Source of the DNA: Lewinellaceae bacterium
Lineage (GTDB): Bacteria; Bacteroidota; Bacteroidia; Chitinophagales; Saprospiraceae
Direction: 5' to 3'
NCBI GenBank assembly: GCA_029976695.1
Contig: JARQTN010000010.1
Coordinates: 1 to 37,881, forward strand
Length of the DNA: 37,881 nucleotides
Below, piece after piece: positions 24,027 through 37,336 of the stretch. The notes beneath the pieces are model-generated. The model worked only from the letters and a program-made list of their open reading frames with translations. It searched no databases and was not told the DNA's origin. The position numbers and the translations under genes are program-made. Position 1 is the first letter of the stretch, and each line of letters begins with the position of its first letter.

Positions 24027-25847
24027 TTATTCCACAATGGCAAACCGTTTGCCCACAATCAAATTTTCCCCAAGCACCTGTAATGTGTAATTACCGGTCG
24101 GCAGGGATGAAACATTCAATTGCATTTGTTTTGCAGCAGCCTGCTCCCGGGTCATCAGCAACTGTCCTTTCATGTCAAAAACCTGGAAGGTCATCGTCCC
24201 TTTGACCTGTACATCCGTAAAATCGATATTCAGCATGTTGGTAGCCGGGTTCGGAAACACTTCGATCTGAGAGGGTTTCAGCAGGTCCTCGGTCGAGGTC
24301 AGCGGATCGCCAAAGGCGTATTCACCCGTTGCAGAGTTTAAAGTAATTCCATATGTACCTGCAACTGTCCGGATGTTGGCACCATCCTGGGTGCCCATAC
24401 CAGTCGGCCAGTCAGCTGAGCCCCAGTTTACATCCCATGCTGAATTAACCCTGAATTTCACGCCGCCATCAGCAGTTTCATTGTGATCAAAATCGTAGAT
24501 TGTGGCAGATTGGAGGGTCCAGATATTTTCATCTGCAGCACTCTTTTCGAGGTATGTGTCGATGTCCCAGCTTTCCGTCGGGCTGGCATTTCCCACAATC
24601 CCGACCGTGTCATACACGATCAACTCCCTGAATTCATACTCCAGGGTGAAGGAATTGAACGTAATGAAGTACTCACCTGCTGTGATCGGGATATTCGTGA
24701 AGGATCCAAGGGATCCGGTTCCTGTCGGGAAATCCGTTCCGCCCCAGTTTACATCCCAGTTGTTATTCGCCCTGAACTTCAGTTCACCGTCATTGAGATC
24801 AGTCCGCAATGTCCACACGGAAGAATCAGTTGAGCTCCTTTCCATATCGACATCTTCATCCCAGTTGCTTAACGGGCTTGCTGTCCCGATGATGCCGATG
24901 GTCTCATAGATCGTCACCGCCTGGAAAGAATAAGCACCCGTGTTCGTATTCAGCTCGATCAGGTATTTGCCTGCCGGTATCTGGATGGTGTCACCGTCTA
25001 CAGCCGCTGTTCCTTCGGGAAAATCCGTGCCGCCCCAGATGACTGCTCCTTCATCTCCCGAGAATTGAAGTCCGCCGGCGCTCAAGTTGGCAGAAAGTGT
25101 CCACAGGTCACCATTATCCGGGTCTTTCGTCATTGCTGTAGGGGTGTCCCATCCGCCCGGGGTGGCATCACCAATGATCCCGACTGTCGTGTAGGTGACA
25201 TTTTCCTTGAAATTGTATTCCCCGGTCCTGCGATTGAAAGTGATTTCATAATTGCCGGCATTTGGAATGGGTATGTTGGAACCGTCCTGTGTTCCGATCC
25301 CGCTGGGAAAATCTGATGAGCCCCAATTGACAGCCCAGTCATCGTCCTGCCTGAATTTTGCGACAGCAGCAGATAGATCGAGGGTCACAAAGAACAGGTC
25401 CGTGTCCTGGACCGCAGACGTATCCGGGATCATGTTAATATCCGAATCCCATTCGTTTGTCCAGTAATTTGGTGTAGCCGAACCGATAATCCCGATGGGG
25501 GAATCATATTCCAGGTAGTAATCTCCTGTGTTTGAATTGAAGGTAATGAAGTAATCACCAGCAATCACAGGGATGTTATCACCATCCTGAACCCCGACAC
25601 CAACCGGGAATGCCTGGTCGCCCCAGTTCACTGCCCAGTCATCGTCAGCCCTGAATTTTGCCTCACCATCGGTCAATGTAATGCTCAACGTCCAGATATG
25701 CAATGAGTCCGGATCCTGGACCATATTGGTATCTACATCCCATCCTCCGGGCGTGGCTGATCCGATCAGGCCCACAGATGCAATCTGTGCCTGGGAGACT
25801 CCGGCTGCAAGTATGGAAATAAGAACAAAAAGTATTTGTCTTTTCAT
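24027..25847 (-). CDS. T9SS-secreted protein with five SusE/SusF-like modules
   Basis: 606 residues: a signal peptide (1-21, cleavage at SQAQ), five tandem modules of about 90-100 residues (about 25-113, 117-215, 221-309, 316-408, 414-514), and a T9SS type A sorting domain (526-606, VFPNPATNMLNIDF...GNYTLQVLG). Each module starts like VGIIGxATPxxWD and runs through WTL, KFR, W-x-VNWG, FPxGxG and an AGxYxITFN-x2-TGxY end. This is the pattern of SusE/SusF outer-membrane modules, which bind starch through aromatic residues. Module 3 has lost KFR and the first W of W-x-VNWG. Its likely role is surface capture of glycan for the adjacent SusCD. It is divergent from susC by 114 bases. The ligand is inferred, not shown. 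Confidence 0.9.
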   Translation of the reverse strand: MKRQILFVLISILAAGVSQAQIASVGLIGSATPGGWDVDTNMVQDPDSLHIWTLSITLTDGEAKFRADDDWAVNWGDQAFPVGVGVQDGDNIPVIAGDYFITFNSNTGDYYLEYDSPIGIIGSATPNYWTNEWDSDINMIPDTSAVQDTDLFFVTLDLSAAVAKFRQDDDWAVNWGSSDFPSGIGTQDGSNIPIPNAGNYEITFNRRTGEYNFKENVTYTTVGIIGDATPGGWDTPTAMTKDPDNGDLWTLSANLSAGGLQFSGDEGAVIWGGTDFPEGTAAVDGDTIQIPAGKYLIELNTNTGAYSFQAVTIYETIGIIGTASPLSNWDEDVDMERSSTDSSVWTLRTDLNDGELKFRANNNWDVNWGGTDFPTGTGSLGSFTNIPITAGEYFITFNSFTLEYEFRELIVYDTVGIVGNASPTESWDIDTYLEKSAADENIWTLQSATIYDFDHNETADGGVKFRVNSAWDVNWGSADWPTGMGTQDGANIRTVAGTYGITLNSATGEYAFGDPLTSTEDLLKPSQIEVFPNPATNMLNIDFTDVQVKGTMTFQVFDMKGQLLMTREQAAAKQMQLNVSSLPTGNYTLQVLGENLIVGKRFAIVE

Positions 25848-25923: not shown

Positions 25924-25961
25924 TAATCTTAAATTCGTGATCGAACGTTAATGAATTGCAT

Positions 25962-28937
25962 ATGAAAATTAAAATTTTACCTTTTAGAAGGTCCAGGCAA
26001 TACCCCAAAATCATATGTACTGTACCACTTCTTTTTATGCTCTTGTTCAGCATCTCCATGCAGGCACAAAGAACGGTGACCGGGACGGTCATTGATGGCA
26101 GCAATGAAGAGCCGCTGATCGGGGCAAATGTCGTGGTGAGAGATACCCTGATCGGAACCGTCACCGATATTGACGGAAACTTTGAACTTACGATACCGGA
26201 AGGCTTTGAGATCATTCGTATCAGTTATACCGGTTACCAGACACAGGATGTCGACATTTCCGGCAAGAGTGAGCTCATCATAGTCCTGACAGCGGGTGAA
26301 CTGCTGGAGGAAGTGGTCGTGATCGGCTACGGCACGGTCAAGCGGGAAGATGCGACTGGTGTTGTCCAGTCGGTCTCTGCTGAGGATTTCAACCGGGGTG
26401 CGATCACCGGCGCTTCCGAACTGCTGGCAGGTAAAGTGCCTGGCGTTACGATCACCACCGGAGGAGCGCCAGGCGAAGGGTCGGCCATCCGGATCAGGGG
26501 GGAATCGTCCCTCAGTGCGACAAACGATCCGCTGATCGTGATCGACGGCGTGCCGATTGACAACAGTGCTGTTTCCGGTTCACGGAACGTGCTCAATATC
26601 ATCAACCCGAATGATATCGAGAGCTTTACAGTCCTGAAGGATGCTTCCGCTGCCGCGATCTATGGAAACAGGGCCGCCGGCGGGGTGATCCTGATCACAA
26701 CGAAAAAAGGATCTGTCGGCAGCAAGCTTTCAATCGGGTATAACGGGAATGTTTCTGTCGGAGAGGCGACAAGATTTGTGGATGTGCTGGATGCGGATGA
26801 ATACCGGTCCATCATCAGCGATCGGTATGCGCCCGACCATCCGGTATTCACCAAATTGGGCAATACGTCGACCAACTGGCAGGAACAGATCTATCAGCCT
26901 GCCTTCGGGCAGGACCACAACGTGTATGCTTCCGGGGCCGTAGGTGAAGTGCCTTACAGAGTGTCTCTCGGGTATACCTACAAGGACGGCATCCTTAAAA
27001 CGGACAACTTTCAACGGTTCACCGGTGGGGTGAACCTGAACCCGAGACTGTTTGATAATACCTTGCAGTTGAATATTTCGCTGAAGGGGATGCTGACCAA
27101 TAACAACTTTGCCGACAGGGGAGCGATCGGGAATGCTGTCGGTTTTGACCCGACACACCCGATCCGCCAGGATACAAGCGACATCTATGGTGGATATTTT
27201 ACCTGGGTGGACAATAATGGAAACCCGGCACTGATCGCCCCGACTAATCCGATGGCCTTGCTGGATCTGCGCGAGGACAGGTCAGATGTGAGCAGGACGA
27301 TCCTGAATCTATCCGCAGATTACCGGTTTCCCTTCTTTACGGATCTGAGGGCAAACCTCAACCTGGCGATGGACCGGTCAAATGGAGATGGTTCCGTGGT
27401 CGTGCCAAATACGGCGGCATTTGCCTTTGACGAGATCAACGGCGGAGGCGTCAACAACTATTATGAGCAATCACGGAAAAATGATTTGCTCGAGTTCTAC
27501 CTGAATTACAAAAAGAACCTTGCCAAGGCAAGCATCGACCTGATGGCCGGCTATTCCTGGCAGCATTTCGAGATCGACAATTACTTCAGGAATTCGGATG
27601 CTGCGGGGACACCTGCAGAGACACTTGAAGGCAGTGACCCGGCTGAGTATTACCTGGTCTCCTTCTTCGGCAGGGCGAATTTGGGGTACGATGACCGCTA
27701 CTTGCTGACGCTGACACTGCGGAGGGATGGCACTTCACGGTTTTCACCCGATAACAGGTGGGGCCTGTTTCCCGCAGCTGCCTTCGCCGTAAAGGTCATT
27801 GACAATCAGCGTTCCAGTTTCAACAGCCTGAAATTCCGTGCTGGCTGGGGGGTAACGGGGCAGCAGGACATCGGTGACTTTTACGCCTACCTGGCCAGGT
27901 ACCAGATCGGTACGGAGAATGCAGCCTACCAGTTAGGTAATGATTTTGTGACAACCATACGGCCGAATGGATATGATTCCAATATTCGCTGGGAGGAAAC
28001 AAGTACGCTGAACCTGGGTGTGGATTTCTCCATCATCAAAGACCGCCTCAGCGGATCCCTTGATGTGTACCAGCGGAATACAACAGACCTGCTCAACCGG
28101 ATCCCTGTTCCTGCCGGGACGAACCTCACGAACTTTGTCACAACGAACGTAGGAGATATGGAAAACCAGGGCGTGGAGCTGGCGCTTTTTACCACACCCT
28201 ACACAAGCCAGAATGTCAATGTAGATCTGAGCGTGAATGTGGCGTACAACAGGAACGAGATCACACGCCTCACCGCAACTGACGATCCCGATTTTATTGG
28301 TGTGCCGACCGGAGGCATCGCAGGTGGTGTGGGCTCAAATATCCAGATCCACACGGTCGGTTTTGCACCCCGGTCTTTCTATGTGTTCAAACAGCTGTAC
28401 GATGAAAACGGAAACATCCTGGAAGACCAGTTCGAGGACCTGGACGGAGATGGCGATGTGGATGAGGAAGACAAATACAGGTTTGAGAACCCGGCTCCCG
28501 ATTTTACATTCGGGTTTACCGGCAGGGTCGATGTACACAATTTCAGCCTGAGTTTTGCCGGCAGGGCCAATGTAGGGAATTATGTATATAACAACGTGCA
28601 GACTGACCAGGGCTGGCTCAACCGGATCTACCACACCTCAGGAACTCTCTGGAATGTGCATCATTCTGCTGTTGAGAATAATGTGCTGGAGCAGTCGAGC
28701 CTGACATTCAGTGACCATTTTGTGCGGCCTGCGGATTTCCTGAGGGTGGACCACATCACGCTCGGATATACATTTGACAATGCGATCGGAAAGTTCTTCC
28801 GGGTATATGCCACTGTGCAGAACCCATTTGTCATCACGAGCTATGACGGGCTCGATCCTGAGATCTTTGGCGGGATCGACAACTCCTTTTATCCAAGGCC
28901 GCGGACCTGGTTATTCGGATTGAATGTTGAATTCTAA
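25962..28937 (+). CDS. susC: SusC/RagA-type TonB-linked outer-membrane transporter
   Basis: 991 residues from the ATG at 25962 (MKIKILPFRR). A signal peptide ends near SMQAQ (about 36). A carboxypeptidase-regulatory-like domain (about 38-112: TVTGTVIDG...GANVVVRD) is followed by the TonB-box region LEEVVVIGYGTVK (115-127), the plug (about 130-240, with VIDGVPID and IYGNRAAGGVILITTKKG) and a 22-strand barrel that ends in an aromatic-rich terminus (TWLFGLNVEF). It imports oligosaccharides across the outer membrane with TonB energy and a SusD lid. susD follows 19 bases later. The substrate is probably alpha-glucan and/or galactan, from the neighbouring enzymes. The symbol is by family, not proven orthology. 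Confidence 0.95.
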   Translation: MKIKILPFRRSRQYPKIICTVPLLFMLLFSISMQAQRTVTGTVIDGSNEEPLIGANVVVRDTLIGTVTDIDGNFELTIPEGFEIIRISYTGYQTQDVDISGKSELIIVLTAGELLEEVVVIGYGTVKREDATGVVQSVSAEDFNRGAITGASELLAGKVPGVTITTGGAPGEGSAIRIRGESSLSATNDPLIVIDGVPIDNSAVSGSRNVLNIINPNDIESFTVLKDASAAAIYGNRAAGGVILITTKKGSVGSKLSIGYNGNVSVGEATRFVDVLDADEYRSIISDRYAPDHPVFTKLGNTSTNWQEQIYQPAFGQDHNVYASGAVGEVPYRVSLGYTYKDGILKTDNFQRFTGGVNLNPRLFDNTLQLNISLKGMLTNNNFADRGAIGNAVGFDPTHPIRQDTSDIYGGYFTWVDNNGNPALIAPTNPMALLDLREDRSDVSRTILNLSADYRFPFFTDLRANLNLAMDRSNGDGSVVVPNTAAFAFDEINGGGVNNYYEQSRKNDLLEFYLNYKKNLAKASIDLMAGYSWQHFEIDNYFRNSDAAGTPAETLEGSDPAEYYLVSFFGRANLGYDDRYLLTLTLRRDGTSRFSPDNRWGLFPAAAFAVKVIDNQRSSFNSLKFRAGWGVTGQQDIGDFYAYLARYQIGTENAAYQLGNDFVTTIRPNGYDSNIRWEETSTLNLGVDFSIIKDRLSGSLDVYQRNTTDLLNRIPVPAGTNLTNFVTTNVGDMENQGVELALFTTPYTSQNVNVDLSVNVAYNRNEITRLTATDDPDFIGVPTGGIAGGVGSNIQIHTVGFAPRSFYVFKQLYDENGNILEDQFEDLDGDGDVDEEDKYRFENPAPDFTFGFTGRVDVHNFSLSFAGRANVGNYVYNNVQTDQGWLNRIYHTSGTLWNVHHSAVENNVLEQSSLTFSDHFVRPADFLRVDHITLGYTFDNAIGKFFRVYATVQNPFVITSYDGLDPEIFGGIDNSFYPRPRTWLFGLNVEF

Positions 28938-28956
28938 AAGCGACAAACAAGAGATC

Positions 28957-31170
28957 ATGAAAATCAAGACTTATATCATCAAACCATTTTTTATTCTTTT
29001 TTTCATTTTGGGGATCTCCCAGTCCTGCGTGAAAGACCTGGACACGGTGCCCATTGATGAGGATGTTGTCACGGCCAATGTCGTTTTTGACAGTCCCGAA
29101 TCCTACCGGCAGTTTCTTGCGAAAGTGTATGGCGGTCTTGCCCTGAGCGGGCAGCAAGGCCCTGCCGGCCAGCCTGATATCGAGGGGATCGATGAAGGGT
29201 TTGGACAATATCTCAGGGGATACTGGTATCACCAGGAACTTTCGACAGACGAGGCGGTGATCGGCTGGAATGACCAGACCATCCAGGATTTCCACAATAT
29301 GGCATGGACCGCTGCTGACGGATTCATCTTTGCCTTTTACAGCCGTGTTTTTTATCAGATCGTGATTTGCAACGAATTCCTTCGGGAAACAACGGATGCA
29401 AAACTGAGTGACCGGGGTGTAGATGCAAATTTGCGTGCCGAGATCCAGGGATATCGTGCGGAGGCGAGGTTTTTGCGCGCACTGAGCTACTGGCATGCAC
29501 TGGACCTCTTCCGCAATGTGCCGTTTGTCACGGAAGAAGATGCGGTGGGGTCTTTCTTCCCGGAACAGATCCAGGCACCTGACCTGTACAATTATATTGA
29601 ATCTGAGCTGCTGGAAATCGAGAACCAGATCGCCCAGGTGCGGACGAACGAATATGCACGTGCTGATCAGGGTGCCGTCTGGGCGCTGCTGGCAAAACTC
29701 TACCTGAACGCAGAAGTGTATACCGGCACACCGCGCTACCAGGATGCCCTGACATACTGCCAGAAGGTGATTGACGCAGGCTATGAACTGGAGCCAGAAT
29801 ATACACACCTGTTTCTTGCTGACAACCATACCTCGGATGAAGTGATCTTCCCGGTAGCCTTTGACGGGGTCAAGACCCGGACGTGGGGCGGCATGACTTT
29901 CCTGGTCAGGGCGGGCATTGGTGGCTCTATGAATGCTGCAGATTATGGTGTGGCAAGTGGCTGGGCAGGAACCCGCACGACCAGGCAGTTTGTGGAAAAC
30001 TTCCCGCTTGATGTAGGCGCAGGTGGTATTGTCGTAGAAAGAAACCTGGGGCAGTCAGCTTCCTACCCCAGGATCTACGCCCCGGGAGCTTACCAGGGCT
30101 GGAATCCGACGAATAATAATTCAGCAATTTCGTCCCCGCAGCGAAACAGTATCTTCGAAGGATACAAGTATTTTGACGAAGACAATGCTCCGCTGCTGTT
30201 CACATTGATCCCTTCATTTGCGCAGACGCTGGGTGATAACGGAGGAGACGGCACCCTTGAAATGAACGGCGACACAATCCGTGCAGGTGAAGCCGGGCTT
30301 TACAGGATCGAGGTTAACCTCACAAACGGCACCTATACGCTCGAACGTACTGAGTGGGGCATCATTGGCCCGGCTGCATCGGGAAACTGGGATGAGGATG
30401 TAGATATGACCTGGAATGCTGAAGAAGGTGCAATGGAGGCCAACCTGTCGATGACCGAAGGGGCTTTCAAATTCCGTGCAAACGATGACTGGGTCATTGA
30501 CCTGGGTGATGAAAACGGGGATGCGATCCTGACTCGCGGCGGTGCCGATATCCAGTTAGCCAAGGCAGGTGGATACCAGGTCCTTCTCTATCTGGACAGG
30601 CCTGATTATTCCTATGAACTCAGGCTTTCCGCATTTGATGGCCGGGGTATTTTCCATACGGACGGACAATCCCTCGATATCAATGACATCGCTCTGTTCA
30701 CGGAAGGCTATGCAGTTGGGAAATTCAAGAACGTGACATCAGAAGGGGTACGTGGATCAGATTCCGATTTCCCCGATACGGACTTCCCGATGTTCAGGCT
30801 GGCAGATATCTATTTGATGGCAAGCGAAGCGATCTTGCGGTCCAACGGCAACCGTGCACTCGCCCTTGAATACTTCAACAGGGTGCGGACACGTGCCTAT
30901 GGCGGGTCCACAACAGGCAATATTTCCGATGCGCAACTTGACCTGGACATGATCCTGGATGAACGGGCGCGGGAATTGTACTGGGAGTGCCACCGCCGTA
31001 CTGATCTGGTCCGCTTTGGCAAATTTACAACAGGGGACTATCTCTGGCAGTGGAAAGGAGGTGTCATGGATGGCAGGGCCGTGGAAGATTTCAGGAACGT
31101 ATACCCGATCCCTTCAGCTGATGTGGGTGCAAATATCAACCTGGTCCAGAATGAAGGATACGGCGGATAG
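28957..31170 (+). CDS. susD: SusD/RagB lipoprotein with two SusE/F-like modules inserted
   Basis: 737 residues from the ATG at 28957, well beyond the usual 500-600. A lipoprotein signal ends at the Cys in LGISQSCVKDLD (about 24). Residues 25-365 are the SusD helical fold (EIQGYRAEARFLRALSYWHALDLF is a hallmark, at about 162-186). About 368-557 are two tandem SusE/SusF-like modules: the first has YAPGAYQGWNP, EGYKYF and AGLYRIEVNLTNGTYTL; the second has WGIIGPAASGNWDEDVDM, FKFRANDDW and GGYQVLLYLD. The SusD fold then resumes (DFPMFRLADIYLMASEAILR, RARELYWECHRRTDLVRFGKF). Both halves belong to one open frame. The symbol is by family. Confidence 0.92.
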   Translation: MKIKTYIIKPFFILFFILGISQSCVKDLDTVPIDEDVVTANVVFDSPESYRQFLAKVYGGLALSGQQGPAGQPDIEGIDEGFGQYLRGYWYHQELSTDEAVIGWNDQTIQDFHNMAWTAADGFIFAFYSRVFYQIVICNEFLRETTDAKLSDRGVDANLRAEIQGYRAEARFLRALSYWHALDLFRNVPFVTEEDAVGSFFPEQIQAPDLYNYIESELLEIENQIAQVRTNEYARADQGAVWALLAKLYLNAEVYTGTPRYQDALTYCQKVIDAGYELEPEYTHLFLADNHTSDEVIFPVAFDGVKTRTWGGMTFLVRAGIGGSMNAADYGVASGWAGTRTTRQFVENFPLDVGAGGIVVERNLGQSASYPRIYAPGAYQGWNPTNNNSAISSPQRNSIFEGYKYFDEDNAPLLFTLIPSFAQTLGDNGGDGTLEMNGDTIRAGEAGLYRIEVNLTNGTYTLERTEWGIIGPAASGNWDEDVDMTWNAEEGAMEANLSMTEGAFKFRANDDWVIDLGDENGDAILTRGGADIQLAKAGGYQVLLYLDRPDYSYELRLSAFDGRGIFHTDGQSLDINDIALFTEGYAVGKFKNVTSEGVRGSDSDFPDTDFPMFRLADIYLMASEAILRSNGNRALALEYFNRVRTRAYGGSTTGNISDAQLDLDMILDERARELYWECHRRTDLVRFGKFTTGDYLWQWKGGVMDGRAVEDFRNVYPIPSADVGANINLVQNEGYGG

Positions 31171-31194
31171 ATTGGTTGCTTTGTAAACAAGCTG

Positions 31195-31237
31195 ACAGGT
31201 CACCACAACAATGGATTGCGGTGACCTGTTTTGTTCT
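31195..31237 (+). terminator. Terminator between susD and the GH53 gene
   Basis: Perfect 10-bp stem ACAGGTCACC / GGTGACCTGT (31195-31204 and 31220-31229), 15-base loop, followed by TTTGTT. It lies 24 bases after the susD stop and ends 14 bases before the GH53 start, so it would strongly reduce or set the level of GH53 read-through. Confidence 0.75.
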
Positions 31238-31250
31238 ATATTCGAATGAC

Positions 31251-32633
31251 ATGAGAAGATGCTTTTTATATCTCATTCTGCTCCTCCCTATGTTTGCAGG
31301 TACAAACATGGCACAGGAGTTCTATTTTGGTGCCGACCAGTCCTATGTCAACGAGATGGAAGATTGCGGGGCAACGTACAAAGAAAACGGAGTTCCAAAA
31401 GATGTCTACCATATCTTCGGTGACCATGGCTGCAATCTTGTCAGGTTCAGGCTGTGGCACACGCCTGCCTGGTATGACAACCTGAATTCCGGGAAACGGT
31501 ATTCTGACTATGCGGATGTCAAAAAAGGGATCCAGCGGGCGAAGAATGCAGGGATGTCCGTGTTGCTGGATTTCCACCTATCCGACAACTGGGCGGACCC
31601 GGGAAAACAGGTCATCCCTGCAGCCTGGCTGCCTGTAGCTGACAATCTCCCTGTGCTCCAGGATTCGCTGTACAACTATATTTACGGGACTCTTTCAGCC
31701 CTGGACGATGAAGGATTGATGCCCGAAATGGTGCAGATCGGCAATGAGACGAACAAGGGGATTTTGCTGACCCCGGAGCAAAACCAGGAATGGGTCCTCG
31801 ACTGGGAACGGAATGCGCCGTTATTCAATTCTGCCATCCAGGCTGTGCGGGACCTTTCTGAGGAGGTAAGGATCATGCTGCACATCGCAGACCCGTCAGC
31901 GGTCAGCTGGTGGATGGACCAGTTTCACCAACACGGCGTCACGGACTTTGATCTTATCGGCATTTCCTATTACTGGGCATGGCACCAGCCGACAGATCTG
32001 GACGAGACCGGGGCGATCATCGCACAATTGAAGGCCAAGTACCCGACCAAGGATGTCATGATCGTGGAGACCGGGTATATCTGGACGACTGCGGCACAGG
32101 ACCAGGCAAACAATATCATCAACAGTGTACACCCGGATTATGCCCCGGCCTCCCCTGAGATTCAGCGGGACTGGCTGATCGATCTGACTGAAGAGGTCAT
32201 CGAAAGCGGAGGGATCGGGGTTGTCTACTGGGAACCCTCGTGGGTGTCGACCGGCTGCCGTACCCAGTGGGGGCAGGGTTCACACCAGGAGCATGCCACA
32301 TTTTTCGATTTCAACCATAACCTGCTTTTGCCCGGCGGAATTGAATGGATGGAATATGCGTATGGCTTGGTATCAACAGAAGAACAGTCAGGTGACCCGG
32401 ATATTCAAATTATTGTACATCCGGATCAGCGCACATTTCGCCTGAAATTAAGCCCTGACTCCGACCTTTCCCGGCTTTCATATGCCGTGCTGGACACATC
32501 CGGCAAGGTCCATGCTGAAAGAAAAATCGAAGATCCCGCTGCTCACTACCGGCTTCCAACTACACCTGGCGTGTACATCATTTCAGTCCGGTCCAAGGAC
32601 GGTATCTATTCCCAAAAGGTGTCGGTCCACTGA
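31251..32633 (+). CDS. Arabinogalactan endo-beta-1,4-galactanase, GH53, with a T9SS-like tail
   Basis: 460 residues from the ATG at 31251. The longer open frame would start before the hairpin terminator and delays the signal peptide. Signal peptide 1-22 (cleavage near NMAQ). GH53 (beta/alpha)8 domain about 24-372: FRLWHTPAW, the acid/base Glu166 in QIGNETNKG and the nucleophile Glu273 in IVETGY, plus the late VVYWEPSW. A degenerate T9SS type A sorting domain is at about 385-460 (VLDTSGKV, PGVYIISV). It cuts beta-1,4-galactan, as in pectin side chains. It sits with two GH13 enzymes, which is not the expected pairing for one substrate. It converges on the next gene with a 4-base gap. Confidence 0.92.
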   Translation: MRRCFLYLILLLPMFAGTNMAQEFYFGADQSYVNEMEDCGATYKENGVPKDVYHIFGDHGCNLVRFRLWHTPAWYDNLNSGKRYSDYADVKKGIQRAKNAGMSVLLDFHLSDNWADPGKQVIPAAWLPVADNLPVLQDSLYNYIYGTLSALDDEGLMPEMVQIGNETNKGILLTPEQNQEWVLDWERNAPLFNSAIQAVRDLSEEVRIMLHIADPSAVSWWMDQFHQHGVTDFDLIGISYYWAWHQPTDLDETGAIIAQLKAKYPTKDVMIVETGYIWTTAAQDQANNIINSVHPDYAPASPEIQRDWLIDLTEEVIESGGIGVVYWEPSWVSTGCRTQWGQGSHQEHATFFDFNHNLLLPGGIEWMEYAYGLVSTEEQSGDPDIQIIVHPDQRTFRLKLSPDSDLSRLSYAVLDTSGKVHAERKIEDPAAHYRLPTTPGVYIISVRSKDGIYSQKVSVH

Positions 32634-32637
32634 TCAC

Positions 32638-35448
32638 CTATCTGGCTAAAAGGATCTTACCCTGGTATAACCGCTCATCGGTTTCCACCCGGAGGAGGTA
32701 AATCCCGCTACTCAGGTTTCCTGGTATTGTAATCAATCCGCTTGAACCCGCCAATTCGTTGAGCTGGACAAGTTGCCTGCCCGAGAAGTCCGTCAACCGG
32801 ATTTCCCTGATCTGTTCCCCCGGAAAGACCGTCAGCCTGACTTCACTTCCCGGATGTACAGGATTGGGAGAAAGCGTGATTTCCTCAATTTGCGCTGGCT
32901 TTGGTACACTTGTCGTGAATCCGTCAGGAGGAGTGATCCGTTTGGATGTGTATACCCGGTATTCGCCGGGCTGGAAGGTGATCCTGTCCTCCACATTCGC
33001 AACTTCGATACTGTCGCCGGTAAAATATTCATACCAGGTGCCCGGGTACTGGAATTTCGGGATCACATCGGAAGTGGTCACCCTGAAGTTCGCGATCACG
33101 GTCGCATCCATATCCGGGTGGTTGAGGTGGACATTCTTCACATACAAATTGCCGTCATTGAAAAAGAAGTCTGTTGTTGAAAATGTCGGATATTCCTTTT
33201 TCAGATGGAGCAGGGATGCTGTGACCCTGAACAGCCGTTCCCTGCGCCAATCTTCCAGGTAATCCCAGCGGATGGGTTTGGGATCCAGCCGGCAATTGTC
33301 ATTCACCGTTCCATTTACACAATGATTGATCGAATAATCATATCCCGTTTCACCAAATTGCCAGAGCATTTTTGGTCCCGGCACAGTGTAAAAGATCGTA
33401 CTCGCAGCTTCCACACGCTGTAATGCTGTAGTCAACTCGCGTGTATTGTAGTTGCCTTCGCTGTCTCCGAAATTCAGCAGTCTGTACATCATGCGTTCCT
33501 CGTCGTGGCTTTCCATATAGCCGACTGCATGCGGGGAGTCCCATCCGCGCACGGAATAGTCCAGCCAGTCCAGGTCTGAGCTGTAACCCATGGCAGCCTC
33601 ACTGAAGGCATGGTTCATATTCCCCCACAGCATCATCCCGTAATCAGCCAGTTCTTTTTCTTCCGTGTTATCTGCGAAATGCTCGAGGATCACATAATTG
33701 GTCGAATCGATACTCCAGATGAAATCGGCATAATCCTTCAGGATCGTGATCCGGCTTGCGTCATATTGTGACCAGGCGCCGACATTGTCCCCTGTATTTT
33801 TCTGTGTGAATCCCTTGGACAGGTCAAACCTGAATCCGTCGAACCTGAACTCCGTAATCCAGTATTCGAGTACTTTTTTCACCCATTGTTGAGTCGCAAT
33901 GCTTTCGTGATTCACATCATAGCCAACATTAAAAGGATGCCGGGCTGTCACATTGAGATAAGGGCTTTCCGGGGTCGGCCTGAAATTCTGGCTGTCCCAG
34001 TAAAGCTGAGCTAGCGGACTCAGTGAGAAGACATGGTTGAAGACGACATCCTGGATGACAGCGATGCCGCGCGCATGGGCTTCATCTATCACCCTTTTAA
34101 GGTCTTCGCGTGATCCGTAGTATTTATCCACAGCCATGTGGAATGACGGGTTGTATCCCCAGCTTAGGTTCCCTTCAAATTCCTGGATAGGCATGAATTG
34201 GATGGCATTTACACCGAGTCTTTCCAGGTAATCCAGGGTATCGAGCAGTGAAGCATAACTGTGGTCACCCAGGAAATCACGCATCAGCAATTCGTAGATG
34301 ATCAGGTCTTCATTATCAGGTTTGATATAATCATTTGCCTGCCAATCGTACACTGTTTGTTCTGTGTCAAATACAGTCAGGATCCCTTCGGCATTCTGCG
34401 GGTATGGAGGTAATCCTGACATGTGAGCTGGAGGAATGAACTGGTCATCTGTGGGATGTAAAATCACCTCTGAATATGGGTCTGCAATGAGCCGTTCAAG
34501 ATCAACCCAGTACTGGTAAAGGTTTGATCCTTCAGGGAATAGGGACCTCGGTAACTCAATCCAGAACCGGTTCCCGTCTTCCGTTTTCCGCATCTGGAAA
34601 TGATTGTCGGGTAGCCAGTCCGTTGCATCGCAAAGCAGGAAAATAATCTCCTTGCCCGGGGCATACAACTGGAAGAAATATGAACTGTCCGTATATGTCA
34701 AGCCGTCCACGATCACAGTGGGTGGATCTGCCGGGGCAAGGCTTCCAACAACGAAATAAGGGAAGGAAAGTGCGGCCGTATCCAGTTCATGGATGGCAAC
34801 AATCTCAATTTCCCCGATGCCTGTGATACCGGGTGTCACAAAAAAGTCGATAATTTCTGCGGAATCCTGGAAAATGAGTTCACCATTTTCATGGACGGTA
34901 ATCCTGGCGGGCATATTGGTTTGCGCCTGGATGCGAAAACTGTCCCCGGCTGTAATGGCAACTCCCTCCGCCGAAGCGGGTGAGATCAGTGAAATGAAAA
35001 GCTGGTCAGATACGGGGTACACATCTGTGAAGATGTCGGACCCGTCTGTATCCCTGCCCACGATCGTACCGTTTACATTCCGGAAAACAAATGCAAGCTG
35101 AAGGACTTCTTCACCAGGCGGGATGCCATAAAATTCTTCAATGTTGTAGCTGATCGAATACAGGTCAGCACCTTCCCTGGTCATGAGCACCCGGTCGTCT
35201 GCCGTGCCCCAGTCCCCTACAACGTGTTTCCAGTCAGTACCGCTATTGCTCTCGCTGGTGATCACACCTGCATGGGCATAGACATCACCCGTGAAACCGG
35301 CAAGGGCGCCATTCCCCTGTGTGGCATCGTAATACACGGTGACATCGTCAAGCTGGGTCGGGAAGGGCGGTTCCGTCCAGATGACCTGGGCAAAAAGAAA
35401 ATTGGGGAGAAACGCCAAAAGGCATGTTTTCAGGATCCTGAATTTCAT
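32638..35448 (-). CDS. Multidomain GH13 alpha-amylase family enzyme, T9SS-secreted
   Basis: 936 residues: signal peptide (1-21), an N-terminal Bacteroidota-type beta module (about 22-145), an Ig-like segment (150-235), a CBM48-like module (about 245-340), the GH13 catalytic domain (about 380-760), a C-terminal beta domain (to about 835) and a T9SS type A sorting domain (857-936, LSPNPVHPG...SGIYLLRV). GH13 regions: I DVVFNH (467-472), II FRFD with the nucleophile Asp542, III VILEH with Glu589, IV ESHDEE with Asp649. The region II-IV sequences are unlike classical endo-amylases; the subfamily (debranching, branching or amylase) cannot be fixed by eye. It probably acts at the cell surface. It is the second gene of an operon with the GH13 upstream (13-base gap). 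Confidence 0.92.
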   Translation of the reverse strand: MKFRILKTCLLAFLPNFLFAQVIWTEPPFPTQLDDVTVYYDATQGNGALAGFTGDVYAHAGVITSESNSGTDWKHVVGDWGTADDRVLMTREGADLYSISYNIEEFYGIPPGEEVLQLAFVFRNVNGTIVGRDTDGSDIFTDVYPVSDQLFISLISPASAEGVAITAGDSFRIQAQTNMPARITVHENGELIFQDSAEIIDFFVTPGITGIGEIEIVAIHELDTAALSFPYFVVGSLAPADPPTVIVDGLTYTDSSYFFQLYAPGKEIIFLLCDATDWLPDNHFQMRKTEDGNRFWIELPRSLFPEGSNLYQYWVDLERLIADPYSEVILHPTDDQFIPPAHMSGLPPYPQNAEGILTVFDTEQTVYDWQANDYIKPDNEDLIIYELLMRDFLGDHSYASLLDTLDYLERLGVNAIQFMPIQEFEGNLSWGYNPSFHMAVDKYYGSREDLKRVIDEAHARGIAVIQDVVFNHVFSLSPLAQLYWDSQNFRPTPESPYLNVTARHPFNVGYDVNHESIATQQWVKKVLEYWITEFRFDGFRFDLSKGFTQKNTGDNVGAWSQYDASRITILKDYADFIWSIDSTNYVILEHFADNTEEKELADYGMMLWGNMNHAFSEAAMGYSSDLDWLDYSVRGWDSPHAVGYMESHDEERMMYRLLNFGDSEGNYNTRELTTALQRVEAASTIFYTVPGPKMLWQFGETGYDYSINHCVNGTVNDNCRLDPKPIRWDYLEDWRRERLFRVTASLLHLKKEYPTFSTTDFFFNDGNLYVKNVHLNHPDMDATVIANFRVTTSDVIPKFQYPGTWYEYFTGDSIEVANVEDRITFQPGEYRVYTSKRITPPDGFTTSVPKPAQIEEITLSPNPVHPGSEVRLTVFPGEQIREIRLTDFSGRQLVQLNELAGSSGLITIPGNLSSGIYLLRVETDERLYQGKILLAR

Positions 35449-35461
35449 GTTGATATATCTT

Positions 35462-37336
35462 TTATTCGCTGTATTCGATTATGACTGCGGTTTGGCCGGA
35501 GACATGTAACCTGTTGCCCAGGTGGATGGTTTCCCCTGTCAGGACATTGATACCCTCCTCTGCGTCACCGAGGTTTAACCTGAATCTGTCCAGGTTGATG
35601 TTCCTGCCCAAATGGCTTTTATTCAGAACAACCATGACGTGCTTTTGATCCAGGGACCGGAAATAGACATACACGCCGTCTTCCGGGACGTAATGCATCA
35701 GGGATCCGTACTGGACAGCCTTGTTTCCTTTCCGCCAGCGGAGCAGTTTTCTTGTGTATTCCAGTGCTTCCTGCTGCTGTCTGTTCAGCCCGTCACGTGT
35801 AAACACATTGACCTTGTCGCCCTTCCATCCGCCAGGGAAATCCGAGCGGATCGTGCCGTGGTCTCCCGGTTTCTCGTGGTCCATCAGGATTTCCGTGCCG
35901 TAATAGATCTGTGGGACACCCCGCGTGGTCAGGATAAACGCCATCGCCATTTTCCAGTGGTCGAAATCTCTGTTCAACTGGTGCCAGATCCGGCTCATGT
36001 CATGGTTGTCCGGGAAGATCACCAGTTCTTCCGGTGCAGGATAATGATAGTCTGTGCCAAGTTGAAGATACAGCCGGGTGATCCCGTCTTCAAAACCTTC
36101 TTCCTGGTTCAGCGCCTCGACCAGTTTGACCTGCAGCGGAAAATCCATCAGGCTGCGCAAGCATGATGTGTACCCATCCGGGTTGTCTTTTCCCTGCTGC
36201 CAGTAAGCCAGTGTGCCAATGTCCCCAAACCATTCCTCGCCGACAATATTCATATCCGGGTATTCCTCCATGATCGCACATGTCCAGTCGGTCATAAAAT
36301 CCCGGAAAGGGTAGGAGTAAGTATCCTGACGGATGCCGCCGAGGTCCGCATATTCGATCCACCAGATGGTGTTCTGGATCAGGTACCTGGACATGAAGGG
36401 GTTGCGCTGATTCAGGTCTGGCATGCTTTCGACAAACCAGCCTTTTACCATCTTTTCCCTGTCTGACGGGGCACCGTAAGGATCAAGCAGTGTCGTCTTC
36501 CTGTGGTTAGTTGGAACAAAGCCCTGTTCCTGGTAGTTGATCCAGTCATCCATCGGCGGGTCCTCCATCCACCAGTGTTCGGAGCCGCAATGGTTCACGA
36601 TGATGTCCATGATGACCTTGATCCCCATTTCCCCGGCGATCCTGCTCAGGTTGGCATATTCCTCATTGCTTCCGAAACGGGAATCCACTTTGTAGTAATC
36701 CGTCGTGGCATAGCCGTGGTAGGACCACTTTTGCTGGTCATTCTCCAGCACGGGATTGAGCCAGATCGCCGTAAATCCCATATCCTTGATATAATCCAGG
36801 TGCTCGATGATCCCGGCGATGTCACCTCCGTGCCTGCCGTAACCCTCCTGCCTGTTCAATCCTTCTTTCATCCCTGCCACCTCATCGTTGGAAGGGTCGC
36901 CGTTGGCAAACCGGTCCGGCGTGATCAGGTACATGACATCTGACTGGTCAAAGCCCTTGCGCTGGGCAGAACCTGGTTTTCTTTTATAAAGCTCGTAGGG
37001 TTGGGTGAATGTCGTTTTTCCATCCTGCTGAAATTCGATATCGAAGGTCTGGCCCTCATTGCCTGGCGCAATGCGTATATCGATGAACAGGTAGTTGGGA
37101 TTCGCTACCTGGTGCACGGCAACGAGGTCAACTGCATCATTGTCGATATGGACACGGTATTTCCCGATGTCCTTGCCGTGGACCATGATCTGGAGTTCGG
37201 GGTTTTGCATGTCCCGCCACCAGAATGGGGGCTCGATGTGTTCGATCGACTGGGCAAAAAGCATCGATGTGCAGGCAATGAAAAGCAATCCTGTGCACAA
37301 CAAACGGAAGAATCCGGTTTCAATTTGGTGGAACAT
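35462..37336 (-). CDS. SusA/neopullulanase-like GH13 glycosidase, periplasmic
   Basis: 624 residues, with a signal peptide (about 1-29, cleavage near LFAQ|S) and no T9SS tail. An N-terminal cyclomaltodextrinase-type domain (30-118) precedes the GH13 barrel: region I DIIVNH (244-249), II GGIRQD with the nucleophile Asp338, III VGEEW with the acid/base Glu367, IV FPDNHD with Asp446. Region V is MPDLN (305-309), the mark of the neopullulanase/cyclomaltodextrinase/SusA group. A C-terminal beta domain follows. By analogy with SusA it degrades imported maltooligosaccharides in the periplasm. First gene of the two-GH13 operon. Confidence 0.93.
   Translation of the reverse strand: MFHQIETGFFRLLCTGLLFIACTSMLFAQSIEHIEPPFWWRDMQNPELQIMVHGKDIGKYRVHIDNDAVDLVAVHQVANPNYLFIDIRIAPGNEGQTFDIEFQQDGKTTFTQPYELYKRKPGSAQRKGFDQSDVMYLITPDRFANGDPSNDEVAGMKEGLNRQEGYGRHGGDIAGIIEHLDYIKDMGFTAIWLNPVLENDQQKWSYHGYATTDYYKVDSRFGSNEEYANLSRIAGEMGIKVIMDIIVNHCGSEHWWMEDPPMDDWINYQEQGFVPTNHRKTTLLDPYGAPSDREKMVKGWFVESMPDLNQRNPFMSRYLIQNTIWWIEYADLGGIRQDTYSYPFRDFMTDWTCAIMEEYPDMNIVGEEWFGDIGTLAYWQQGKDNPDGYTSCLRSLMDFPLQVKLVEALNQEEGFEDGITRLYLQLGTDYHYPAPEELVIFPDNHDMSRIWHQLNRDFDHWKMAMAFILTTRGVPQIYYGTEILMDHEKPGDHGTIRSDFPGGWKGDKVNVFTRDGLNRQQQEALEYTRKLLRWRKGNKAVQYGSLMHYVPEDGVYVYFRSLDQKHVMVVLNKSHLGRNINLDRFRLNLGDAEEGINVLTGETIHLGNRLHVSGQTAVIIEYSE

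Follow-up and report, generated by a model that had tools for sequence, protein, structure and literature searches.

Tandem SusE-type modules carried within a SusD lipoprotein of Saprospiraceae

The locus and its SusD gene

The window, i.e. the whole stretch of DNA that was analysed (37,881 nt of contig JARQTN010000010.1 from a Lewinellaceae bacterium), carries a SusC/SusD gene pair, a divergent gene for a secreted multi-module protein and three glycoside hydrolase genes (Table 1). The SusD gene is located immediately 3′ of the SusC gene, as in the SusD/RagB family; its open frame runs uninterrupted for 748 codons (28924-31170, plus strand). A putative lipobox, ISQSC (residues 31-35; Cys35 at 29026-29028), was recognised by eye after a hydrophobic run, and its position suggests ATG 28957 as the likely start of a 737-aa protein. 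Residue numbers given here are those of the 748-codon frame; the original prediction counted from ATG 28957 and its numbers thus differ by 11.

Two Pfam families were found in the protein above their cut-offs, SusD-like_3 (PF14322) at residues 123-261 and SusD_RagB (PF07980) at 593-746. The NCBIfam model of starch SusD, NF033071, matches residues 16-360 and a second stretch (E 8.8e-130); the score of 433.5 bits misses the curated cut-off of 725, so that we assign the protein to the SusD family and do not name it a starch SusD. The divergent secreted protein is the sole site of PF16411 matches in the genome. Promoter and terminator scans gave signals about equal to those in shuffled sequence; the plasmid search gave one match. 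On contig C50 of the same genome (locus L195) we saw a SusD frame of 1099 codons, with a run of N separating SusD and a GH3-like gene.

Table 1. Features of the window around the SusD gene
Feature	Coordinates	Strand	Basis and remarks
Divergent secreted protein, about five tandem SusE-type modules and type A T9SS tail	24027..25847	-	
SusC TonB-dependent transporter, lid partner	25956..28937	+	TIGR04056, E 3.7e-217; overlaps SusD frame
SusD lipoprotein with inserted SusE modules	28957..31170	+	Pfam, NCBIfam, phmmer; start and lipobox by eye
N-terminal SusD part, residues 36-361	29029..30006	+	Putative glycan-site residues D90, R98, W115, F326, W347
Insert, residues 362-570 (209 aa), tandem SusE/SusF-type modules	30007..30633	+	phmmer, structure model
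Module 1, about residues 379-474	30058..30345	+	W393 retained; second Trp position is F432
Module 2, about residues 476-567	30349..30624	+	W489 and W523 retained; W497 as in most SusE-less inserts
C-terminal SusD part, residues 571-748	30634..31167	+	phmmer, structure model
GH53 (endo-galactanase family) gene immediately 3′ of SusD	31176..32633	+	E 2.1e-98
GH13 alpha-amylase-family protein with T9SS tail	32638..35448	-	Pfam weak, E 0.0011; NCBIfam E 1.5e-7
GH13 cyclomaltodextrinase-type enzyme	35462..37336	-	Pfam profile match

Limits of the insert and its sequence matches

SusE modules normally belong to a separate surface protein. In the window they are situated between the two parts of SusD, and the insert begins 15 residues after Trp347, a conserved residue of the SusD site. 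Aligned by phmmer to the Bacteroides vulgatus SusD 3jys, residues 55-361 and 571-746 are matched and residues 362-570 skipped; the alignment to B. thetaiotaomicron SusD 3ck7 breaks from residue 353 to 583. Neither of these SusDs has SusE modules; 12 residues of 3jys and 68 of 3ck7 lie between the aligned ends, the latter number indicating that B. thetaiotaomicron SusD is itself longer here.

A one-sequence phmmer search related the insert to the divergent multi-module protein (E 3.6e-31). Pfam gave no useful match to the window insert alone, PF16411 included; of 34 relatives in the alignment, made up of inserts and C-termini of SusE, 26 did match this family, SusF_SusE. Against solved sequences, phmmer with the insert matched nothing, and a profile of the 34 relatives matched BT3088 (SGBPdex, E about 1e-6) and two chains at chance level, neither SusE nor SusF being among the matches. 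As sequence searches of solved chains were unproductive, comparison of folds was needed.

Predicted fold

AlphaFold models were built for the mature protein from a 22-row alignment and for the insert alone from a 14-row alignment. The mature model has a mean pLDDT of 74.8 and a pTM of 0.72. The helical SusD parts on both sides of the insert (model positions 111-280 and 591-650) reach pLDDT 71-98 by blocks of ten; the N-terminal stretch holding D90, R98 and W115 is poorly predicted (41-65). VIA-align superposed the model on 3jys with Z 42.5 and rmsd 2.3 over 453 residues, and on B. thetaiotaomicron SusD 3ck8 with Z 41.1 over ∼450 residues. In this model the SusD body is intact around the insert; the whole SusD fold and the putative glycan-site residues are common to the window protein and the SusDs of B. 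thetaiotaomicron (3ck7-3ckc) and B. vulgatus (3jys).

In the mature model the insert (328-536) consists of strands, without a helix of four or more residues; pLDDT is 50-66 at its start and 72-89 in the modules, with a dip to 57 between them. Modelled alone, it forms two beta modules (pLDDT 88.7, pTM 0.85). Its top solved match is SusF 4fe9 (Z 11.7, 174 residues), followed by two SusE complexes, one with cyclodextrin (4fem, Z 11.4) and one with maltoheptaose (4fch, Z 11.2). These SusE/SusF matches span both modules (170-174 residues, rmsd 4.9-5.0), and the next eight structural matches are starch-binding or amylase/pullulanase chains. Foldseek put 4fch in first place (E 2.2e-6). The modelled insert thus has the tandem module fold of SusE and SusF (PF14292 with PF16411); unlike them, it is not a separate lipoprotein, has no PF14292 N-terminal domain and resides inside SusD.

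The original prediction had placed two tandem SusE/F modules, in a single frame, between the SusD halves. This arrangement is upheld by phmmer, the model and the fold comparison; in the structure predicted for SusD alone the insert appears as separate modules and not as part of an ordinary SusD fold. The limits proposed at that time, 30058-30627, were roughly right, though slightly too narrow in comparison with 30007-30633.

Distribution in Saprospiraceae

We call the family, one of environmental bacteria, Saprospiraceae from its named relatives and sampled 248 of its genomes. In a set of 60 genomes, the window's own included, 27 matched SusD with E no higher than 1e-60, nine of them aligning through the insert. 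The insert itself matched 115 of the 248 family genomes at E 1e-5. Inserted SusDs were found in at least 68 of the 248 (67 of 68 compared loci, all but L166, and the window), a lower bound, with E 1e-5 matches such as those in G143, G176 and G209 being outside the compared loci.

The length at the insertion point was compared across 107 SusD frames in which both flanks are present. There were 199-215 residues in 71 of them; 35 were uninserted, with 1-20 residues (5 residues in 18 of the 35; the 20 residues of L080 include some of the flank); the last, L077, had 137. Duplicates L127 and L063 (of L034 and L038) and the frame-shifted L159, whose frame shift is located outside the insert, were left out of trees and counts. 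We also saw inserts of unrelated sequence at the same SusD point: 137 residues in two f5 genomes (L077, 7651-9654; L189, 3510-5513), with no Pfam match for that of L077, and 83-84 residues in two f25 genomes (L183, 3453-5324; L184, 6317-8188).

Among 28 named loci (34-66% best-segment identity) four had the insert. Two of them are Saprospiraceae MAGs (L034, L038); L035 and L036 are named with less precision, and L036 is truncated by its contig end. The 23 named loci without the insert include Flavobacterium, Bacteroides, Tannerellaceae and Muribaculaceae; the 28th, L061, was outside the frame comparison. The chimera is not unique, therefore; the architecture is clade-wide and occurs both next to a separate SusE and, within the clade of the window, in genomes in which none was found.

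Relation to SusE

With duplicates removed, 25 of the 68 inserted loci have a SusE frame of 345-388 aa immediately behind SusD, and the C-terminal half of these neighbouring SusEs is homologous to the insert. The insert is paralogous to the final pair of SusE modules. The lipobox Cys is invariant in ten aligned SusEs, and the SusE of L125 has both PF14292 and PF16411. In sister loci GH13 or SusE is often seen in place of the window's GH53.

In a tree of the 68 inserts and 34 SusE-labelled C-termini, 27 standalone SusEs form one clade (support 93); the SusE-labelled rows of L115, L116, L165 and L167 are multi-module proteins cut at an edge and were left out of module trees and Trp counts. SusE copies and inserts of one genome do not pair, a pattern that suggests a single ancient duplication; on the same ground we set aside a recent gene conversion by SusE. 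With midpoint rooting the SusE clade emerges among inserts of SusE-bearing loci, so that the direction of copying is not given by the tree. We infer copying from SusE to SusD, since a SusE with the same modules is present also beside uninserted SusDs (e.g. in L070).

The tree of SusD flanks has one clade of 72 rows (support 90), of which 68 are inserted; the uninserted L037, L070, L071 and L166 are nested in it. A single origin of inserted SusDs within Saprospiraceae was not rejected (p 0.354). In L166 (5255-8391) the uninserted SusD is followed by SusE and by a 657-aa SusF-like frame with several SusE-type modules.

Gene neighbourhoods of the 68 inserted loci differed. An upstream multi-module gene on the opposite strand, with SusE absent, was observed in 35 and a downstream multi-module gene without SusE in two; 19 had SusE alone, six had both and in six neither was recognised. 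We ran a full SusE profile on the 43 genomes without a recognised neighbouring SusE and on four controls (8 of these 47 genomes being under 90% complete or over 5% contaminated). In the controls the match extended from position 2-5 to 354. Among the 43 genomes the N-terminal SusE domain was matched solely in G239 (5-229, beside SusD); in the other 42, the window's own included, no SusE was found, the insert and multi-module frames alone being among the matches listed, to about E 3e-18. In the window's genome (97% completeness) no PF14292 was found.

Putative tryptophan platforms and conservation

Four alignment columns are mostly Trp in SusE; they correspond to window positions 393, 432, 489 and 523. 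In this order, Trp is present in 26, 26, 24 and 22 of 26 SusEs, a set that appears more uniform owing to omission of the SusE rows of L037, L166, L050 and L051; in 25, 20, 25 and 26 of the 26 inserts that have a neighbouring SusE (L142 counted in this group); and in 7, 0, 16 and 17 of 42 inserts without SusE. All four are retained in 20 of the 26 inserts with SusE vs none of the 42 without, of which 23 retain none of the four. The window insert retains three, both Trp of module 2 among them, and is an intermediate in this erosion.

Given the paired position in each module and the SusE residues W192 and W336, which we take to be starch platform residues, the four Trp would form a putative starch platform. 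Position 393 is F or Y in 17 of the 42 SusE-less inserts. Furthermore, Trp497 (30412-30414) is present in 33 of these 42, in one of 26 inserts with SusE and in 7 of 26 SusEs; it is perhaps a new platform. With F/Y at 393, the gain of W497 may mean that binding was reshaped and not lost.

In the flank tree all SusE-less inserts, and no others, make up a clade of 42 rows (support 100); thus, loss of SusE and Trp erosion are one history, not many. Mean identity of the SusD flanks is similar in loci with SusE (0.658) and without (0.665); that of the insert is 0.519 and 0.423, respectively. The insert is 199-215 aa long in 71 of 71 frames, and several core aromatics are kept in nearly all members. 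D90, R98, W115, F326 and W347, presumably equivalent to D73, R81, W98, Y296 and W320 of B. thetaiotaomicron SusD (in its own numbering), are invariant in 68 of 68 inserted SusDs, most of them being common in 36 others as well.

Interpretation

The reading that we favour, and to which we would give close to an even chance, is that a SusD lid of the starch branch captured a pair of SusE modules and so hard-wires SusE in cis. The two C-terminal, starch-binding-type modules of SusE would then be carried in a loop of the lid and move with it. The insertion would be old, probably a single event in Saprospiraceae, with the neighbouring SusE gene as the most likely source of the copied pair. The window's lineage would have lost SusE afterwards, the SusD-borne pair being the only piece of SusE found fixed to the transporter, and the capture of glycan in bulk probably passed to the neighbouring secreted protein with its roughly five modules. 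In genomes that retain the platform Trp, the insert may hold an alpha-glucan chain beside the SusD site; in all genomes it would supply the binding-independent contribution of SusE, be it to complex geometry or to lid opening.

Judging by its title, Foley et al. 2018 deals with a binding-independent role of SusE in B. thetaiotaomicron. Preservation of the fold in the SusE-less clade, with decay of the old platforms, fits such a role, now exerted from the lid. The role is also discussed in PMC9599597. Erosion of Trp would be expected of a mere passenger too, which weakens our reading; W497 in 33 of 42 SusE-less inserts counts against it and in favour of binding.

It is possible, if rather doubtful, that the modules are glycan-binding arms that seize starch and deliver it into the SusC/SusD cavity during lid opening, much as was originally predicted. 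The fold matches ligand-bound SusE and SusF, the insert starts close behind Trp347 of the SusD site, most inserts with a neighbouring SusE have all four platform Trp, and the window has three, two of them in module 2; the gain of Trp497 agrees with this as well. The idea of arms handing over glycan fits the SusE-bearing genomes, therefore; it is weakened by erosion of the putative platform Trp in most SusE-less ones, the opposite of what one would expect if the insert had replaced binding by SusE. To us, a lid with a built-in SusE function that does not depend on binding is at least as likely as binding arms.

One could also argue that the insert is a passenger or spacer tolerated in a permissive surface loop, with function unaffected. 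Unrelated inserts of 137 aa (L077, L189) and 83-84 aa (L183, L184) do occur at this point, and the insert evolves faster than its flanks, fastest in SusE-less genomes; however, its constant length and near-universal core aromatics, together with the entry of SusE modules into the loop in three families (see below), make this explanation unlikely.

We regard as improbable a system for beta-1,4-galactan or a mixed glycan, with lid modules binding a galactan chain. The window's GH53 gene immediately behind SusD suggests it, and in L053, a Bacteroides relative, a GH53-like gene was seen by eye beside a GH2-like one (the GH53-like gene being unmatched at 1e-30). On the other hand, the window locus has two GH13 genes; the recognised gene next after the inserted SusD is GH53 in 4 of 68 loci, the first type of GH13 in six and the cyclomaltodextrinase type in two; and in structure the insert comes closest to starch-binding or amylase domains. 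With two GH13 genes in the locus and the fold of a starch domain, an alpha-glucan is the most likely ligand; the adjacent GH53 gene, which would suit beta-galactan, is a loose end for this reading.

Finally, long variable regions do occur in SusD (68 residues here in that of B. thetaiotaomicron; extra coil-and-strand regions, not necessarily here, in a xylan-type SusD described in PMC9599597), but the same in-frame insert in 68 family genomes rules out an assembly artefact and, along with the two-module fold (Z 11-12 to SusE/SusF), leaves next to no probability for an ordinary variable region mistaken for modules.

Comparison with known systems

No description of a SusD with SusE modules was found in the full-text library searched, which leaves out most subscription journals and the whole of bioRxiv; none is mentioned in passages of PMC10316084, PMC7618045, PMC11267923, PMC9599597, PMC10076258 and PMC7782687. 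As described in PMC7618045, the levan and dextran utilisomes of B. thetaiotaomicron likewise have a glycan-binding module permanently at SusCD; there, however, glycan is bound by a chain of its own at the SusC lip, and the SusD lids move independently of this chain. SusG, according to PMC11267923, has a starch-binding domain within another Sus protein, CBM58 inserted in domain B, but SusG is an enzyme and not a lid, and the binding domain is a different one. The F5_SusD-like protein 7nek is likewise a SusD enlarged by extra regions; according to PMC9599597 these are random coils and some strands, with no SusE module pair described.

For the starch system, stable vs transient gathering of starch-binding proteins at SusCD is named as an open question in PMC7618045. 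A SusD with SusE modules in cis is a natural experiment that fixes the geometry. The SusE-less clade, with the fold kept and Trp lost, would provide a direct test case for the proposed binding-independent role of SusE, and the loop itself could be a ready-made acceptor site for work on the SusD lid.

Single modules in the same loop of other families

A search of 395 genomes across the phylum gave 101 with a SusD match at E 1e-40. From phylum and order searches, 20 SusD loci of unusual length were examined. Eight SusDs of family f44 (L172-L179) have one module of the first type at the same point (113-117 aa, in one case 146), and three of family f25 (L180-L182) have one module of the second type (97-107 aa); Pfam SusF_SusE was found inside L172 and L181 and was just under cut-off in L182. 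Four more f44 SusD matches, outside the examined loci, were of ordinary length (525-549 aa). Among the matches listed, the full module pair was confined to family f1.

Module trees and one flank tree were built on a thinned set of inserts. In the module tree the f44 inserts adjoin five of seven f44 SusEs (81/85) and the f25 inserts fall among f25's own SusE modules (99/82). A single origin of SusE-type inserts across the three families was only marginally rejected (AU p 0.0497 and 0.0466), so that independent origins are likely but short of proof; the test did not reject a single clade for the three f25 inserts (p 0.302) or, by module 1, for the Saprospiraceae inserts (p 0.154). These sequence comparisons suggest that the single-module insertions of f44 and f25 are probably independent of that in Saprospiraceae.

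We put forward, tentatively, that this loop of the SusD lid has served repeatedly as a socket for surface glycan-binding modules, with at least three captures of SusE modules in Bacteroidota, and that the copy in the window's clade replaced SusE, kept its assisting role and shed or reshaped binding. If so, the window's SusD would represent a natural covalent utilisome for starch.

Of the remaining loci, L185, L186 and L191 have 5, 2 and 16 residues at the point and are uninserted. In the f14 SusDs L187, L188 and L190 the additional residues are located elsewhere, nearer the C-terminus.
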